From Terriglobia bacterium (lineage in GTDB: Bacteria; Acidobacteriota; Terriglobia; Bryobacterales; Bryobacteraceae), in assembly GCA_021324185.1 (NCBI GenBank), contig JAJPJN010000067.1, positions 1-47,488 of the forward strand: a stretch of 47,488 bases of DNA. Direction: 5' to 3'. Made by a program: the position numbers and the translations under genes. Below, piece after piece: positions 39,024 to 46,497 of this stretch. The notes under the pieces were generated by a model. That model was not told where the DNA came from. It was given only the letters and a program-made list of their open reading frames with translations, and made no database searches. Each line of letters begins with the position of its first letter. Position 1 is the stretch's first letter.

Positions 39024-40541
39024 GTGACATCATCAATACGGGATCATAGAGAGTTGCCCTTTCAGCACCTTGATCAGGTCGATGCTTTACGCCGGGAAGT
39101 CGCGCCCCGTCTTGCCCTAAGGCGCAAGTCCGCGCTCGGGCAGTTCATGACCCCTTCGCCCGTGGCGCGTTTCATGGCCGCCATGTTTCCGGCGTCGACC
39201 CTGCACACCTGCCGGCTGCTTGACGCCGGAGCCGGTATTGGCGCACTTTCATGTGCCTTTCTTGATCGTTGGTGCTCCGGCGACAGACTGCAATTCAAGG
39301 CCGTCGAAGTGGAGGCGTTCGAGATCGATAGCGCGCTGCGCGCTCATCTCGAAAACACGCTGGCGAAGTACGCCACGCGGCTACCAGTCACCTTGAAAAT
39401 TTCATCGGGCGATTTTATCTGGCAAGCGGCTTGTAGACATCTGCAGGGCTCGAACCGCTTTTCGCACGCAATCCTGAACCCGCCATACAAGAAGATCAAC
39501 AGTGCATCGGAACATCGCCTTATACTCCGGCGCGTCGGTATCGAGACGGTAAATCTCTATTCGGCATTTGTCGGGCTCGCGCTGCTGCTAATGGCGCCGG
39601 GCGGGCAGCTTGTTGCTATCATTCCGCGCAGCTTTTGCAACGGTCCTTATTATCGGCCCTTCCGCGAATTTCTGCTACAGCATGCCGCCTTGCGCCACAT
39701 GCACCTTTTCGCATCCCGAAATCAAGCATTCAGGGATGATGACGTGTTGCAGGAAAACATCATCATTCGGCTTGAGCGGGGCGGACAGCAAGGCAACGTA
39801 ATCATTTCGACCTCGACCGGCGATAGCTTTGACGATCTCCGCACGTTTGAACACCCCTTCGACCGCATCGTCTCTCGAGACGACCTCGAGCGGTTTATTC
39901 ATGTGCCGATATCCCCAGAGCGCAACGCTATCGAGCTATCAAGCGAGATCCGGTATTCGCTTGCAGACCTCCGAATCGGTGTATCAACTGGCCCGGTTGT
40001 GGACTTCCGATTACTTGATCACATCCAGCAGGAACCGGAAGAGGGAACAGTACCGCTCCTTTACCCCGGTCATTTTGTTGGACGCGCAACGCAGTGGCCT
40101 AAGCAGGGCATGAAACGCGGCAACGCCATCCGACTGAATGACGACACGAAAAAATGGCTCTTTCCGAACGGTTTCTATACCGTGGCCCGGCGTTTCACCG
40201 CGAAAGAAGAACGTCGGCGAATTGTTGCGAGTGTCGTTGACCCCGCCAGCTTCCCAGACGCACCGATGCTCGGCTTTGAAAATCACCTCAATATTTTCCA
40301 TGAAGACAAGCGCGGCTTGCCGGAAATACTCGCGCACGGACTGTCCGCGTTCCTCAACACCACGGCAGTTGACGAGCATTTTCGCCGCTTTAATGGGCAC
40401 ACGCAGGTTAACGCCACGGATTTGCGCCTGATGAAGTATCCATCCCGCGCCGCGCTCATGGCCCTAGGAAAATGGGCAAGGGCGCGAGAGAAGCTTACAC
40501 AGGATATGCTTGATGATCAACTAAAACAGCTCATTAAATGA
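39024..40541 (+). CDS. N6-adenine DNA methyltransferase of a BsuBI/PstI-type restriction system
   Basis: A 505-residue gamma-type adenine methyltransferase (Eco57I-like class). The SAM-binding motif I is LLDAGAGIGALS (residues 65-76) and the catalytic motif IV is ILNPPYKK (NPPY 152-155). LGQFMTPSPVARFMA precedes motif I, as in this class. The C-terminal half should hold the target-recognition region. The start is uncertain: GTG 39024 has no ribosome site, and TTG 39051 is another option. It overlaps the endonuclease gene by 4 nt (ATGA). It should protect the host from the neighbouring endonuclease; by family the target is expected to be CTGCAG. Confidence 0.92.
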   Translation: MTSSIRDHRELPFQHLDQVDALRREVAPRLALRRKSALGQFMTPSPVARFMAAMFPASTLHTCRLLDAGAGIGALSCAFLDRWCSGDRLQFKAVEVEAFEIDSALRAHLENTLAKYATRLPVTLKISSGDFIWQAACRHLQGSNRFSHAILNPPYKKINSASEHRLILRRVGIETVNLYSAFVGLALLLMAPGGQLVAIIPRSFCNGPYYRPFREFLLQHAALRHMHLFASRNQAFRDDDVLQENIIIRLERGGQQGNVIISTSTGDSFDDLRTFEHPFDRIVSRDDLERFIHVPISPERNAIELSSEIRYSLADLRIGVSTGPVVDFRLLDHIQQEPEEGTVPLLYPGHFVGRATQWPKQGMKRGNAIRLNDDTKKWLFPNGFYTVARRFTAKEERRRIVASVVDPASFPDAPMLGFENHLNIFHEDKRGLPEILAHGLSAFLNTTAVDEHFRRFNGHTQVNATDLRLMKYPSRAALMALGKWARAREKLTQDMLDDQLKQLIK

Positions 40542-41497
40542 GCCATCGTCACATCGGGAACGCGAAGAAAATTCTGATTTCTCTCGGCTTACCACGAGCG
40601 CAGCAGAACGAACGTTCGGCCCTTTGCCTTCTTGCGCTGCTCGACCTCAAGCCCAGGCGCAAATGGGCTCAGATCGAAAATCCGCTCATGGGCATCACAC
40701 CAATTTTGGATTGGATACGGGACAACTACAAGAAAAGCTATGCCCCCAACACACGCGAGACTGTGCGCCGCCAGACCATGCACCAATTCGTGGAGGCGGG
40801 CATTGTGCTATACAATCCCGACAAGCCCGATCGGCCCGTGAACAGTCCCTCTGCCGTCTACCAGATCGAACCCGTCACCTTGGCTCTGCTCCGCAGCTTC
40901 GATACTCCGCAATGGCACGACAACTTGACCGCCTATCTTGCCGAACGCCAGACACTCGCGGCCCGCTATGCCCAAGAAAGGAAGCAAAACCGAGTTCCCG
41001 TGCAAATTGCTCCCGGCAGAGAAATCACTCTCAGCCCCGGCCAGCATAGCGAACTGATAAGGGCCATCATCCAGGATTTTGGAGCGCGCTTCGTCCCCGG
41101 AGGCGTCCTGATCTATGCGGGAGATACGGGCGAGAAATGGGGCTACTTCGATGCCGTGGAGCTTTCGAAACTCGGCGTCGACGTCGATGCTCACGGCAAA
41201 ATGCCCGATGTGGTGTTGTACTATCCCGAGCGCAACTGGCTTTTGCTCATCGAGTCCGTGACCAGCCACGGACCCGTTGACGGAAAGCGCCACGCGGAAT
41301 TATCACGGCTGTTTGCCGGCTCGAGGGCCGCCCTTGTTTATGTGACTGCATTCCCGAACCGCGCCACCATGAGCCGTTACCTTGGCGAGATTGCTTGGGA
41401 AACTGAAGTGTGGGTGGCGGATGCACCTTCGCACCTCATCCACTTTAATGGCGTGCGATTTCTGGGGCCTTACGCCCCAACGCTCAGCTACGGCTGA
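40538..41497 (+). CDS. BsuBI/PstI family type II restriction endonuclease
   Basis: A 319-residue endonuclease. The C-terminal catalytic half carries GDTGEKWGYFDAVELSKLGV, Asp224 in KMPDVVLYYPERNWLLLIES, Glu239 in LLIESV and Lys250 in SHGPVDGKRHAEL, the conserved block of the BsuBI/PstI family. The N-terminal ~150 residues are helical (AKKILISLGLPRAQQNERS) and match the family's helical domain. Members cut CTGCAG; that specificity here is inferred from the family. ATG 40538 overlaps the methyltransferase stop, so the two are co-translated. The pair sits between unrelated genes and is probably a horizontally acquired unit, though no mobility gene or repeat flanks it. Confidence 0.92.
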   Translation: MSHRHIGNAKKILISLGLPRAQQNERSALCLLALLDLKPRRKWAQIENPLMGITPILDWIRDNYKKSYAPNTRETVRRQTMHQFVEAGIVLYNPDKPDRPVNSPSAVYQIEPVTLALLRSFDTPQWHDNLTAYLAERQTLAARYAQERKQNRVPVQIAPGREITLSPGQHSELIRAIIQDFGARFVPGGVLIYAGDTGEKWGYFDAVELSKLGVDVDAHGKMPDVVLYYPERNWLLLIESVTSHGPVDGKRHAELSRLFAGSRAALVYVTAFPNRATMSRYLGEIAWETEVWVADAPSHLIHFNGVRFLGPYAPTLSYG

Positions 41498-41592: not shown

Positions 41593-43404
41593 ATGTCTCG
41601 CTTTCAGCAGCTCCTCAGCGCCGCTCTCCTGCTCCTTCTGCTGGCAGGCGCTCCCGCCTTCTCACAGAGCTTCTTCCGGCTCCAGGACGTCAGGCCGGGA
41701 ATGCGCGGCGTGGGCCGCACTGTCTTCCATGACAATCGCATCGAAGAGTTTCAGGTCGAGATCCTCGGAGTGCTCGAAAATGCCAGCCCAAAGCAAAGCA
41801 TCATATTGGCTCGCCTGAGCGGCGGCCCGCTCGAGCAGACCGGCGTTCTGCAAGGGATGAGTGGTAGTCCCGTCTATATCGACGGCAAGTTGCTCGGCGC
41901 CGTGGCGCTCGGTTTCCCGTTTTCGAAAGAGCCGATCGCGGGAATTCAGCCCATTGAACAGATGATTGCCGGCGCCACGTTTACCCCTCCCGCCGCAGGC
42001 CGTCCTGTAGTAGCAATCGCGGATGCTCATCGCAAATTCCCCGAAGCCCTTACTGCTCTCAGTAAGGACCCCTCGCAAGCTCCTGTATCAAGGTTTGGCA
42101 ATCTGACGGAAATCTCCACTCCACTTGCTCTATCGGGCTTTACCAGCCGCACACTTGATACCTTTGCTGCAGAATTTAGAAAACTTGGCTTCGAGCCTCA
42201 ACAGGGAGTGTCCGCCGGCAGCGCAACATCTCAGCAGTACACGGGCAGGATTGAACCGGGGTCTATGATCAGCGTCCAGCTCCTCAGCGGTGACTGGGGA
42301 ATCAGCGCCGACGGCACTGTCACCTATGTCGATGGGCAAAAGGTCTACGCCTTCGGCCACCGTTTTCTCGATGGCGGCCCAATCGAATATCCCTTCGCAA
42401 GATCTGAGGTGGTGGCCTTATTACCCATGCTCAATACCTCCTTCAAGCTATGCGTCCCGCGCGAATGGATCGGCGCCATCCTGAGCGATCGCGCCACCGC
42501 CGTCGCCGGCATCGCCGGGCGCAAAGCCGCCACCATCCCTCTCGCAATTTCCGTGCACGGCCAAAACACCGGAGACCACGACTACCACATGCAGGTTGTG
42601 AACGACCGTCTTCTCACGCCGTTCATTACTCAAACCGCCATCTTCTCCGCCATCGACGCCACCCAGCGCACCCTCGGCGCCGGCACCCTTCGCTTGCGCG
42701 GGCGCGTCGAATTTGACAACAACCTTCCGCCTCTCATCGTGCAGGATATTTTCGTCAGCGATAGCGGTCTCGCCCAGCAGGTTTCAACCGACGCCGTCGT
42801 CACCCTCGGCTTTGTGCTTGGCGCCGGATTCACTGATCTGCACATCCGGCAAATGAGCTACGATCTCGCGCCCACCGATGTCAAACGCCAGATGCGCATC
42901 GCGCAGGTCTGGGCTTCCCGCCACGACGTGCGCCCCGGAGACACCCTCCAGATCACCGCTCTGCTCGAAGGCGAAAATGGTATCGAATTGACACGCACCG
43001 CGACCTATCAGGTCCCCGTGGGAGCGCCGCTCGGCCCGCTGAATCTCACCGTCAGCGATGCCAATGGTCTCAACACCCCGGACTTCGCCGGCCTGTCGCA
43101 AACCGCCCTGCACTCGCCCGCCGAGCTCATCCGTGTCATCAACGATTTCCGCGGCAGCGAAGCCGCCTATGTCCGCATCTGGCGCCAGCAGCCGTCTTTC
43201 ACCATCTCCGGTCCCATGCCCGGCGGCGATATCTCCGATCCGCCTCCCTCCGTGATGCTCGTGCTGGCCGACCCCTCCAACTCCGCCACCACCAGCCAGG
43301 CCCAAACGCTGACTCGCGGTTCTCAAGTGGCCGAAATCAAATTGCCCGTCGACGGCTTCGTCGTGAGCGGCTCGCGCACCATACAGGTGGAAGTGAAGGA
43401 GTAA
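41593..43404 (+). CDS. Secreted SpoIVB-like (S55 family) protein with permuted motif order
   Basis: A 603-residue protein with a signal peptide (LLSAALLLLLLAGAPAFS). Residues ~30-125 contain VGRTVFHDNRIEEFQVEILG, then ARLSGGPLEQTGVLQ and GMSGSPVYIDGKLLGAV (residues 88-104; likely nucleophile Ser90), closely matching the end of the SpoIVB peptidase domain. Residues ~245-310 contain GTVTYVDGQKVYAFGHRF (His256) and PFARSEVVALLPM, matching the beginning of that domain (the ALGHGI region). The order is thus opposite to Bacillus SpoIVB, where His precedes Ser. The C-terminal ~250 residues look like beta-sandwich domains. Activity is plausible but unproven. The next gene follows after 5 nt. Confidence 0.82.
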   Translation: MSRFQQLLSAALLLLLLAGAPAFSQSFFRLQDVRPGMRGVGRTVFHDNRIEEFQVEILGVLENASPKQSIILARLSGGPLEQTGVLQGMSGSPVYIDGKLLGAVALGFPFSKEPIAGIQPIEQMIAGATFTPPAAGRPVVAIADAHRKFPEALTALSKDPSQAPVSRFGNLTEISTPLALSGFTSRTLDTFAAEFRKLGFEPQQGVSAGSATSQQYTGRIEPGSMISVQLLSGDWGISADGTVTYVDGQKVYAFGHRFLDGGPIEYPFARSEVVALLPMLNTSFKLCVPREWIGAILSDRATAVAGIAGRKAATIPLAISVHGQNTGDHDYHMQVVNDRLLTPFITQTAIFSAIDATQRTLGAGTLRLRGRVEFDNNLPPLIVQDIFVSDSGLAQQVSTDAVVTLGFVLGAGFTDLHIRQMSYDLAPTDVKRQMRIAQVWASRHDVRPGDTLQITALLEGENGIELTRTATYQVPVGAPLGPLNLTVSDANGLNTPDFAGLSQTALHSPAELIRVINDFRGSEAAYVRIWRQQPSFTISGPMPGGDISDPPPSVMLVLADPSNSATTSQAQTLTRGSQVAEIKLPVDGFVVSGSRTIQVEVKE

Positions 43405-43412
43405 CCGGATTG
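43396..43412 (+). promoter_or_regulatory. Ribosome binding site for a TTG start
   Basis: AAGGAG (43397-43402) overlaps the end of the S55 gene and lies 7 nt before TTG 43410. It identifies TTG as the true start of the propeller gene and shows that the two genes are translationally linked. Confidence 0.65.
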
Positions 43413-45638
43413 CGAATCCTTCTTCGCATCGCGCTCGCAATCTGTACTCTGGTGCAGCTTTCCGCAGCCGCCACCAGCACCGCCTGGGAAGTCACCGGCT
43501 TCGCCGATTTTCTCAAAGGCCGTTTCAAAGGTCTCTCGCTCACCGCCGATGGCATCCTGCGCCCCGGCCCCGCGCTGAAGTGGAACGCATCGCTCGATCA
43601 ACCCGCCGTCTGGAGCCTCGTCGCCGCGCCCGGCGGCAATGTCTTCGCCGCCACCGGCAATCAGGGCAAGGTCTTCCGCATCGCGCCCGACGGCAGCGTC
43701 AGCCCCATCTGGTCCGCCGAGCAGAGCCAGGTGTTCGCCTTGTGCATCACCGGGCAGGGAACACTCTATGCCGGCAGCTCGCCCAATGGCGGCCTCTATC
43801 GTGTCGCCAACAATAAAGCCGAACTCGTCTGGAAATCGCCTGCCAAATACATCTGGGCCATCCGGGAGGCGCCCGATGGCGCGCTCTATGTTGCCACTGG
43901 CGAACAGGGCCGCATCTACCGCATCGCTCCCAACGGCAAGGCGGACGTCTATTACGAAACCGGCCAGTCGAACGTCATGGCTCTCGCGGCCGGCCCCAAT
44001 GGTCATCTGTATGCCGGAACCGATCCGAACGGCATCATCTACGACATCACCGCTCCCAACACCGCCACCGTCCTCTACGATTCCACGCTGCCTGAAATTC
44101 GCGCCATCGCGGTCGATTCAATCGGCACCGTCTACGCGGCCGCCATGGGCGGCGCTGTCGCTACCCGCACCACCACCGGAACCACTCCCGCCGGCGCCAA
44201 CCCCACTCCCGTCGTGTCTTCCACCCCTACCGTCATCACCGTCACCGAGCAGGGCGGGACCAAAGTAACCCCGCCCGATACCGGCAAAACCGGCACATCT
44301 ACTTCATCGAGCGCTGCCACATCAAATACCGCTGTCGTCGAGGTAAGCGGCGTCGAAAAATCGGCCATCTATCGCATCGCTCCCAACCATGCCGTCGAAA
44401 CGCTGCGCAGTTCCAAGACCGACAACGTCTATGATCTGATCGTTGACAACGGCGCGGTATTTTTTTCGACCGATGATCATGGCCGCATCTATCGCCTCAC
44501 CGGAGTCGGGCTGCACCAGACCACCCTCATCGCCGAGCCCGGCGATGGCGAAACCACGCGCCTGATAAAAACCAGTGCAGGCCTCTTCGGCGCCTTGAGC
44601 AATCCCGCGCGCGTGGTGGCATTCGGCCCTGCAGCAAGCGCCCCCGCTTCCTATGAATCGCAGGTGCACGATTCTGTTTCCGTCGCGCGCTGGGGACATC
44701 TCCAATGGCACGGAAGCGGCTCCGGCCTCCTCTTCCGCACGCGCACCGGCAACACCGCCCGGCCGGATTCCACCTGGAGCGCCTGGTCCGCGCCTATTTC
44801 AGATCCCGATCAGGCGCTCATCCAAAGCCCGCCCGCGCGCTTTATCCAATGGCGCGCCGAGTGGCCGGCGGGCAACCAGGCCGAGATCAACACCGTCTCG
44901 GTGCCCTATCTCTCGCAGAATTCCCCGCCTGCCATTCACAGCATCACCGTCAGTTCCGTAACCGGAACAAACGCCGCCAAAGCCGCTGCCAATACGGCCA
45001 CCTCCACCGCTGCTTACTCGGTAACCGTCACCGATACCGGTGAGCCGCCCTCCACCAGCAGTTCCACCACCGCCACGCAAACCGTTTCGCGCCTGCAGAC
45101 AACCCAGACCCAGATCTCCTGGCAGGCCGACGATCCCGACAACGACAAACTGGTCTACACCGTCTACTTCCGCGCCGAAGACGAGCAGGACTGGCAACTG
45201 ATTCGCAGCCGCATGTTTGAAAACACGCTATTACTCGATCCCGACGTCTTTGCAGACGGCCGTTATTTCTTTAAGGTGGTGGCTTCCGATGCGCCCTCGA
45301 ACGCCTCCGAATTTGCCCTTGAAACCGAAATGGTGAGCACGCCCGTCTTGATCGACAACACTCCGCCGCTGGTGAACCTGAGCGCGCCGGTACGCAACGG
45401 CATGGTGGTCGAGATGGATGTCGATGCAGTTGATAAAACCAGCCCGCTGCGCCTGTGCGAATATTCGCTCGATGCCGGCTTATGGCAGCCGGTGGAATCG
45501 GTTGACGGCGTGACGGATTCGCCGCATGAACGCTTCCACATCAAGCTCGACAACGTCCGTCCCGGCGAGCACCTGCTCGTCGTCCGCGTCTACGATTCAG
45601 CCAACAACGCCGGCCTCGCCCGCGTCGTCCTCCGCTAA
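43410..45638 (+). CDS. Secreted beta-propeller protein with C-terminal sandwich domains
   Basis: A 742-residue protein starting at TTG 43410 with AAGGAG 7 nt upstream. It begins with a signal peptide (LRIALAICTLVQLSAAA after the first residues). Residues ~60-250 and ~310-400 hold repeated propeller blades of the form VFAATGNQGKVFRIAPDG, LYAGSSPNGGLYRV, LYVATGEQGRIYRIAPNG and LYAGTDPNGIIYDI. The middle insert (~250-310) is very rich in Thr/Ser/Pro and repeats TTTGTTPAG-like text, a likely flexible linker. The C-terminal part contains fibronectin-like segments (DPDNDKLVYTVYFRAEDEQD, GRYFFKVVASDAPSN). Probably extracytoplasmic; it may bind a ligand or partner for the upstream S55-type protein. 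No enzymatic motif is seen. Confidence 0.8.
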   Translation: MRILLRIALAICTLVQLSAAATSTAWEVTGFADFLKGRFKGLSLTADGILRPGPALKWNASLDQPAVWSLVAAPGGNVFAATGNQGKVFRIAPDGSVSPIWSAEQSQVFALCITGQGTLYAGSSPNGGLYRVANNKAELVWKSPAKYIWAIREAPDGALYVATGEQGRIYRIAPNGKADVYYETGQSNVMALAAGPNGHLYAGTDPNGIIYDITAPNTATVLYDSTLPEIRAIAVDSIGTVYAAAMGGAVATRTTTGTTPAGANPTPVVSSTPTVITVTEQGGTKVTPPDTGKTGTSTSSSAATSNTAVVEVSGVEKSAIYRIAPNHAVETLRSSKTDNVYDLIVDNGAVFFSTDDHGRIYRLTGVGLHQTTLIAEPGDGETTRLIKTSAGLFGALSNPARVVAFGPAASAPASYESQVHDSVSVARWGHLQWHGSGSGLLFRTRTGNTARPDSTWSAWSAPISDPDQALIQSPPARFIQWRAEWPAGNQAEINTVSVPYLSQNSPPAIHSITVSSVTGTNAAKAAANTATSTAAYSVTVTDTGEPPSTSSSTTATQTVSRLQTTQTQISWQADDPDNDKLVYTVYFRAEDEQDWQLIRSRMFENTLLLDPDVFADGRYFFKVVASDAPSNASEFALETEMVSTPVLIDNTPPLVNLSAPVRNGMVVEMDVDAVDKTSPLRLCEYSLDAGLWQPVESVDGVTDSPHERFHIKLDNVRPGEHLLVVRVYDSANNAGLARVVLR

Positions 45639-45777: not shown

Positions 45778-46269
45778 CTACTTCCCCGGCCCAACCGTCA
45801 TCGCCACTTTCTTCGCAATGTCATCCATCTTCGGATCTTCAATAATGAAATGACCCTCGCAAACCGGGTTGCCTTCAACCAGCACCGTCCAGGTCGTCCC
45901 CAGCACATAGGGAGAACTCAGCCAGACACGATTCGGGGACTCCTCTAACACCTTGGCCCGCTTGTTAAACTCAAGCGCTACACTCTTCGCGCGCGCCAGC
46001 GTTTGCCCCGGCGAATGTTCCTGGATACTCACCGATACCTTGCCGTTCGGCGACTTCATATGGCCCGTCTGGCCCACCGTCTTGTCCGCGTCCGTATCCA
46101 CCACCCAGTCGCCCGGAACCGCAAGCTGGCACGAGCCGCCACCTCCACGGTCCGTCGGAGATGCCGTCCGCGTGAGTCTCCGTGGCGATTTCACCACCTT
46201 CCATCCAGGCGGAACTTCGGCCGCAAACAATGCGCAACAACAAAGGAGAACCCAGAGAATTTTCCTCAT
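45778..46269 (-). CDS. Small secreted protein of unknown function
   Basis: A 163-residue protein starting at ATG 46269 with a short signal peptide (MRKILWVLLCCCALFAAEV). The mature part is mixed alpha/beta (WKVVKSPRRLTRTASPTDRG, GGSCQLAVPGDWVVDTDADK, VSIQEHSPGQTLARAKSVAL, WTVLVEGNPVCEGHFIIED). I do not recognise the family. The frame remains open for 49 codons upstream only because the repeat-rich spacer happens to lack stops there; that part is a Lys/Pro/Arg repeat and is not coding. Convergent with the propeller gene. Confidence 0.7.
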   Translation of the reverse strand: MRKILWVLLCCCALFAAEVPPGWKVVKSPRRLTRTASPTDRGGGGSCQLAVPGDWVVDTDADKTVGQTGHMKSPNGKVSVSIQEHSPGQTLARAKSVALEFNKRAKVLEESPNRVWLSSPYVLGTTWTVLVEGNPVCEGHFIIEDPKMDDIAKKVAMTVGPGK

Positions 46270-46289
46270 GCGATCAGCATATCCGAACG

Positions 46290-46380
46290 CCGCTTCCGGC
46301 TTCCTTGGCCTCCTGCCTTGTGGGGCCGGGCTTCCGTCTTCTGCTGGCTTCCTTGGCTTCTTGGCTTCTTGCTTCCCGCT
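46290..46380. repeat. Repeat-rich spacer with CTTGGCTTC units
   Basis: The spacer between the small secreted protein gene and the tRNA contains several CTTCCTTGG / CTTGGCTTC-type units, including GGCTTCCTTGGCTTCTT, identical to the repeat at 163-231. It also has GCTTCCGTCTTC, as at 152-163. The unit order differs from that of the left copy. Confidence 0.7.
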
Positions 46381-46420
46381 TCCGCCCGTTCGCCCACCCT
46401 GCGCTAAAATTGCCATTGTT

Positions 46421-46497
46421 GCCGGTGTAGCTCAGGTGGTTAGAGCGACGGTCTCATAATCCGTAGGTCGCAGGTTCAACTCCTGCCGCCGGCACCA
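46421..46497 (+). tRNA. tRNA-Met (CAT), elongator type
   Basis: A 77-nt cloverleaf including encoded CCA. The acceptor stem GCCGGTG pairs with CGCCGGC (with one T-G). The D arm is GCTC/GAGC, and the anticodon CAT is at 46455-46457 (CTCATAA loop). The T arm has GTTCAAC. The 1-72 pair is G-C, so it is not an initiator tRNA. The body fits elongator Met better than the lysidine-modified Ile2 tRNA, but the latter cannot be excluded. A TAAAAT box lies 11-16 nt upstream (46405-46410). Confidence 0.95.

Follow-up and report, generated by a model that had tools for sequence, protein, structure and literature searches.

The closest described systems and the locus

SpoIVB of Bacillus subtilis (MEROPS S55, PF05580, PDB 9LNF) is an extracytoplasmic serine protease, and it acts in signalling by proteolysis. 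Here we describe a related gene, together with the gene that follows it, in a contig of a Terriglobia bacterium (GenBank assembly GCA_021324185.1, contig JAJPJN010000067.1) from Acidobacteriota, an abundant soil phylum. The stretch analysed covers positions 1 to 47,488 (nucleotides, nt) of the contig, and this whole stretch is called the window. The first gene encodes the predicted protease and the second a β-propeller protein. With SpoIVB the protease shares two homologous barrels, one bearing the GMSGSP serine motif (Ser barrel) and the other having a third strand that ends in a Gly-His (GH) motif (His barrel). Unlike SpoIVB, it has the two halves in reversed order and an extra C-terminal region, and a PDZ domain was not detected. 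The residues around the active site may also differ: a candidate Asp299 stands in place of Asn, a pairing that depends on the alignment, and Ala or Ser in place of Thr393. The gene contexts are different as well, in that the propeller gene adjoins the permuted protease, whereas spo0A follows spoIVB in two annotated records.

Two other groups of described proteins are relevant. HtrA/DegP proteases (S1C) have a similar Ser barrel (DegP 150-255), are likewise extracytoplasmic serine proteases, and have a Ser-His-Asp triad in common with the candidate triad proposed here. However, relative to HtrA/DegP the barrels of the permuted protease are reversed, its propeller partner is a separate protein and, again, PDZ was not detected. 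The partner has propeller repeats in common with the Vgb-lyase, SMP-30 and Reg_prop types of protein, but differs from them in its C-terminal part, which is fibronectin type III (Fn3)/immunoglobulin (Ig)-like, and in its steady association with the permuted protease.

The computations show that both halves of the protease are homologous to SpoIVB in swapped order. Our reading of the locus, to which we give a probability of about 0.7, is that it encodes an exported, circularly permuted serine protease of the PA clan, related to S55, together with a dedicated propeller partner. An excerpt of one study reports S55 peptidases in Acidobacteriota from MEROPS counts (PMC8841776), so that such acidobacterial genes have been counted before. 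In the titles and abstract beginnings of the open PubMed Central literature we found no permuted S55, no naturally permuted chymotrypsin-fold protease and no protease/propeller pair. Judged from the sequences, the nearest description would be a permuted S55 variant with a partner of its own, the permutation and the pair appearing to be new. If true, this would be a natural barrel swap in one of the best-known enzyme folds, and nearly every member sampled from a phylum would have it.

Motif order and family assignment

Pfam covers only the Ser half of the permuted protease. PF05580 (Peptidase_S55) matches residues 42-106, corresponding to profile positions 126-192 of 210, with a score of 38.3 bits against a cut-off of 25 (E 1.9e-9). 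The SpoIVB equivalog TIGR02860 was not reached (34.8 bits against a curated cut-off of 305.25). A match to SpoIVB of known structure (9lnf) is found with the protease sequence (E 3.5e-7) and also with a profile of its family (E 4.6e-10).

A sequence-only reading of the window had pointed out that the order of the motifs is the reverse of that in Bacillus SpoIVB, and this was borne out in the relatives. Both regular expressions matched in 100 of the 126 family members, and in every one of these 100 the Ser motif comes first. The opposite order was found in all 13 SpoIVB proteins in which both motifs were found (14 were examined). The consistency of the order, together with near-invariant motif residues, indicates that the reversal is a trait of the family and not an accident of one sequence.

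The same picture emerges from 119 genomes of the phylum. PF05580 matches at E <= 0.001 are present in 111 of them (103 above the cut-off), and every match falls within profile positions 94-202, that is, in the Ser half. No match at this threshold covers the first 93 positions, so that a canonical S55 was not seen in the 119-genome sample.

Relatives of the protease were found in 286/297 genomes of Acidobacteriota, 59/198 of Spirochaetota and 22/296 of Actinobacteriota, the labels of the last two phyla being taken from the records L009 (Spirochaetota) and L010 (Solirubrobacterales). The nearest named relatives (L004-L008) are from acidobacterial metagenome-assembled genomes and one isolate. The source genome itself has a second protease/propeller pair on another contig, C11. 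In viral contigs and in phage and plasmid records, nothing related to the permuted protein was recovered at the thresholds applied. Several viral contigs (L042, on the same contig as L189; L043, L187, L188 and L190) match only a late stretch of canonical spoIVB, which begins near the GMSGSP codons or a little upstream of them. This stretch abuts recombinase-like open reading frames (ORFs) in L042 and L043, as judged by eye, as if phages integrate in spoIVB.

Proposed circular permutation

The relation of the two halves to SpoIVB was studied by profile-profile comparison with hhalign. The profile of the permuted family was made from 126 relatives (74 from Acidobacteriota, 33 from Spirochaetota and 19 from Actinobacteriota), some of them close kin of each other, and the canonical profile from 14 SpoIVB sequences. 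The Ser half aligns to SpoIVB 247-315 (P 6.5e-16), and the His half (residues 212-345) to SpoIVB 133-264 (P 7.9e-7, score 48.1), with both GH motifs paired. With the columns in native order the best alignment covers the Ser half alone (score 106.0). When the halves are swapped, a single collinear alignment is obtained over SpoIVB 133-315 with a score of 133.8. The scores of the His half in null comparisons were far lower: 17.9 when reversed, at most 22.3 in 60 column shuffles, at most 33.5 in 60 shuffles of 8-column blocks, and at most 16.4 with 26 other segments. When the halves were swapped and the His half block-shuffled, the highest score among 40 such profiles was 114.6. The circular permutation suggested in the sequence-only reading is therefore supported at the level of profiles, since each half has its counterpart in SpoIVB, in the opposite order, and collinearity returns when they are swapped.

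The SpoIVB sequences were drawn from three kinds of source: plasmid records of Bacillota, a single contig from a viral collection, and human-gut records that lack annotation and are filed as phage. The viral-collection contig also has a Spo0A-like ORF (by eye), and in our judgement this contig and the human-gut sources are misfiled bacterial DNA. A separate candidate was the linker between the barrels: residues 126-232 were compared with the PDZ profile, since a strict permutation of SpoIVB would place its PDZ domain there. The score of 15.1 is above the best of 60 block shuffles (14.4), but the hhalign probability is 1.6% and 27 columns align, and we do not claim a PDZ domain in the linker.

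Structure models were also consulted. They are AlphaFold2 models of medium quality, each from 8 sequences, with a mean predicted local distance difference test score of 61 for the whole protein and 65 for the lone His half. Residues 25-131 of the whole-protein model find their match in the second barrel, the one with the Ser, of HtrA, 3C and trypsin-like proteases; on DegP 150-255, the match has Z 10.8 and a root-mean-square deviation (rmsd) of 3.6 over 98 aligned residues. Stretches around His256 are of low confidence in that model. The model of the lone His half has eight strands; His256 follows the third of them, and Asp299 is placed between the fifth and the sixth. His57 and Asp102 have these strand positions in the first barrel of chymotrypsin. 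In VIA-align, 48 of the best 50 matches of the lone His half are, by title, PA-clan-type proteases or their relatives, the best being V8 protease (Z 7.5, rmsd 3.4, 81 aligned); the remaining two are a toxin particle and a poxin.

Several other results weigh against the permutation. Pfam does not detect the His half. When the profiles were shallow, built from 37 permuted sequences and 4 canonical ones, the probability for the His half was only 6-13%, which is not significant. A contig of the source genome (C133, 16019-16297, L003) has a weak PF05580 match over positions 3-96, that is, outside the Ser half (14.2 bits, E 0.1); it is below the cut-off and lies in a short frame with a stop. Among the models, the lone His half falls, in unbroken ranges and with Z < 8, on barrel two of trypsin-like proteases, which supports a barrel of that type without singling out barrel one. 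Foldseek gave no match below E 0.001 for either model. The entry 9LNF is not among the best 50 matches of either structural alignment, an absence that says little because the comparison was limited to Foldseek's best 1000 chains.

These results could be taken to mean that there is no permutation, only the Ser barrel being S55-like and the GTVT...AFGH segment being an independent domain with a chance likeness to SpoIVB. Pfam and phmmer do recognise the Ser half alone as S55, and when the His segment alone was run with phmmer against the PDB, the best match was not SpoIVB but 31 residues of a glycoside hydrolase (6t2s, E 0.0026). With the family profile, 6t2s is absent from the best 60 of the 64 PDB matches at E <= 1. 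A chance likeness is hard to reconcile with the P value of the His half, the far lower nulls and the single alignment produced by the swap; in addition, both halves are modelled as trypsin-type barrels. We regard this explanation as very improbable and continue with a circularly permuted protease.

Predicted catalytic residues

In the permuted family, the position of Ser90 is Ser in 124/126, that of His256 is His in 125/126 and that of Asp299 is Asp in 123/126 relatives. All three residues are present together in 122/126 members, the window protein included. In the proposed structure, the nucleophile Ser90 would lie in the leading barrel, with His256 and Asp299 in the one that follows it, and trypsin-like packing of the two barrels would build the triad. 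The assignment of Asp299 is opposed by two observations. Asp234 is nearly as conserved (121/126), making it a weaker alternative as the third residue of the triad. In 13 of the 14 SpoIVB sequences, Asn stands five residues after the Gly that aligns to Gly294, and in the remaining one Ser stands there; this pairing with Asp299 rests on an ungapped reading of the strand, and it moves by about 10 residues between hhalign runs.

An excerpt of the report on the SpoIVB crystal structure (9LNF) places Asp363 about 24 Å from His236, leaves the third catalytic residue open and proposes Thr393 for it (PMC12502668). Of the 126 permuted members, only 7 have Asp where the alignment places Asp363. At the position of Thr393, 98 have Ala, 25 have Ser and none has Thr. 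Because neither residue is kept, the permuted family and SpoIVB seem, from these alignments, to use different third residues. The permuted family thus bears on the open third residue of SpoIVB.

Three tandem copies of the permuted protease are present in each of two spirochaetal genomes (L173 and L072, in G424:C38; L073, in G459:C8). In one of the copies in L173 the triad positions are occupied by Asn, Ile and Arg, and to judge from these substitutions this copy is probably inactive. A protein that lacks proteolytic activity altogether and serves as a scaffold or receptor could be imagined along these lines, since at least one tandem copy has lost all three residues and inactive members therefore probably exist. 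With Ser, His and Asp all kept in 122/126 members, such a role is improbable for this protein, and an active protease remains the preferred reading.

The probable propeller partner

The propeller protein has repeats with Pfam matches to Reg_prop and SGL, and a match to Vgb_lyase that is below the curated cut-off. The evidence for the Fn3/Ig-like part consists of weak matches in aligned members, to fn3 in 2/6 and to Big_13 in 2/6.

The pairing of the two genes was studied at 53 acidobacterial loci (the window and 52 others, mostly one per family, chosen among the higher-scoring protease matches and covering 50 families), 20 spirochaetal loci (of 59 positive genomes) and 8 actinobacterial loci (of 22 positive genomes), the position of the propeller being counted from the start of its profile match. 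A propeller gene is downstream on the same strand in 51/53, 12/20 and 0/8 of these, respectively. In 48 of the 51 acidobacterial cases the propeller match starts within 600 nt, and in three at 1.7-2.1 kb. When neighbours were clustered over 85 loci, the propeller was found in 62 and the next commonest cluster in 12. Co-occurrence was counted in the 297 acidobacterial genomes with E thresholds of 1e-5 and 1e-25: both proteins occur in 278, the protease only in 8, the propeller only in none and neither in 11 (Fisher P 2.3e-15). One genome counted as protease-only (G092) has a divergent propeller adjoining the protease (L154), so the 8 are an upper bound. Distances between proteases and distances between propellers were compared over 63 linked pairs (46 acidobacterial pairs plus 4 more from that phylum, 12 spirochaetal ones and the C11 pair of the source genome) and were correlated with r 0.92. 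The genes overlap by exactly 4 nt in 11/63 pairs. For the C11 pair, the three nearest loci are identical whichever of its two proteins is compared.

The pairing suggested in the sequence-only reading is therefore supported in Acidobacteriota, and does not extend to the loci where the propeller is absent from the side of the protease: 8/8 actinobacterial, 8/20 spirochaetal and 2/53 acidobacterial. As to the two acidobacterial loci (L120 and L123), their genomes, G082 and G049, do contain a propeller match at another place. Besides these loci, what speaks against a dedicated partner is that both the Fisher test and the correlation of distances ignore shared ancestry. In three of the spirochaetal loci without an adjacent propeller (L057, L059 and L074) the next gene is PgsA-like, and in a fourth (L055) it is MlaE-type permease-like, as seen by eye.

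The function of the pair can be pictured as follows. The protease would cleave substrates outside the cytoplasm, and the propeller/Fn3 protein, presumably made from the same message, would bind the protease or its substrates. It is most likely dedicated to the protease, either recognising substrates for it or controlling it. The two proteins would be kept in matching amounts by translational coupling. The role may be in envelope quality control or in signalling; as the pair is nearly universal in the phylum, a housekeeping function in the envelope is indicated. It seems reasonably probable that the permuted family keeps a Ser-His-Asp triad, whose third residue SpoIVB seems to have changed, and that with its one propeller protein it forms a near-universal two-protein envelope system in Acidobacteriota, shared with many Spirochaetota. 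The propeller protein could instead be mainly a substrate, or an effector activated by cleavage. Co-occurrence and coupling fit a protease with one dedicated substrate equally as well as a complex, and there is no direct evidence against it; the correlation of 0.92 suits a lasting interface, but it also suits shared ancestry. We consider this unlikely on balance and prefer a recognition partner. The near-universal pair is a ready target for genetics in Acidobacteriota.

Features of the locus and its neighbourhood

The positions of the features are given in Table 1. By codon count, GMSGSP is at residues 88-93 and the His segment GTVTYVDGQKVYAFGH is residues 241-256, its AFGH ending at His256, both as first read from the sequence. 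The layout of the two genes was also read correctly: the protease stop codon TAA is at 43402-43404, and after a gap of 5 nt the propeller gene starts with TTG at 43410, its likely ribosome site being within the S55 gene. The products of both ORFs have a hydrophobic, export-like N-terminal stretch (by eye), and a hydrophobic stretch upstream of the Ser barrel is present in 121/122 relatives tested.

Table 1. Features of the protease/propeller locus, in window coordinates
Feature	Position	Strand	Basis or remark
Circularly permuted S55-like protease gene	41593..43404	+	ORF, ATG start, 603 aa; PF05580 E 1.9e-9; permutation test
Putative export signal, hydrophobic, residues ~1-25 of protease	41593..41667	+	Sequence, by eye; relatives
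Ser barrel, residues 25-131, homologous to SpoIVB C-terminal barrel	41665..41985	+	Model vs DegP; profile P 6.5e-16
GMSGSP motif, residues 88-93	41854..41871	+	Predicted nucleophile Ser90 = 41860-41862; Ser in 124/126
Linker from Ser barrel to His barrel, residues 132-211	41986..42225	+	PDZ profile score 15.1, hhalign probability 1.6%
His barrel, residues 212-345, homologous to the barrel preceding the SpoIVB Ser barrel	42226..42627	+	Profile P 7.9e-7; strand order
His256, predicted catalytic base, directly after His-barrel strand 3	42358..42360	+	His in 125/126
Asp299, predicted third triad residue, between His-barrel strands 5 and 6	42487..42489	+	Asp in 123/126
C-terminal region, residues 346-603, β-rich with helices in model	42628..43401	+	No Pfam family above cut-off
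AAGGAG, likely ribosome-binding site of propeller gene	43396..43401	+	Inside protease gene, 8 nt before TTG
Secreted β-propeller protein gene, C-terminal Fn3/Ig-like part	43410..45638	+	ORF, TTG start, 742 aa; propeller families

Two overlapping genes immediately precede that of the protease: one for an Eco57I-type methylase (39024-40541) and one for a BsuBI/PstI-type restriction endonuclease (40538-41497). In the loci of the nearest relatives (L004-L008) these are replaced by a divergent exosortase-like gene, and four of the five also have a DUF3485-like ORF (both by eye). Pfam confirmed one ORF of each kind (L004 5066-5941 and L007 4292-4951, respectively). In the wider survey, the 28 commonest neighbour clusters listed do not include the exosortase linkage. 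Downstream of the pair, a minus-strand ORF at 45778-46416 (212 aa from its first start codon) has no Pfam match at E <= 0.01, and it lies between the propeller gene and a tRNA-Met (CAT) at 46421-46497.

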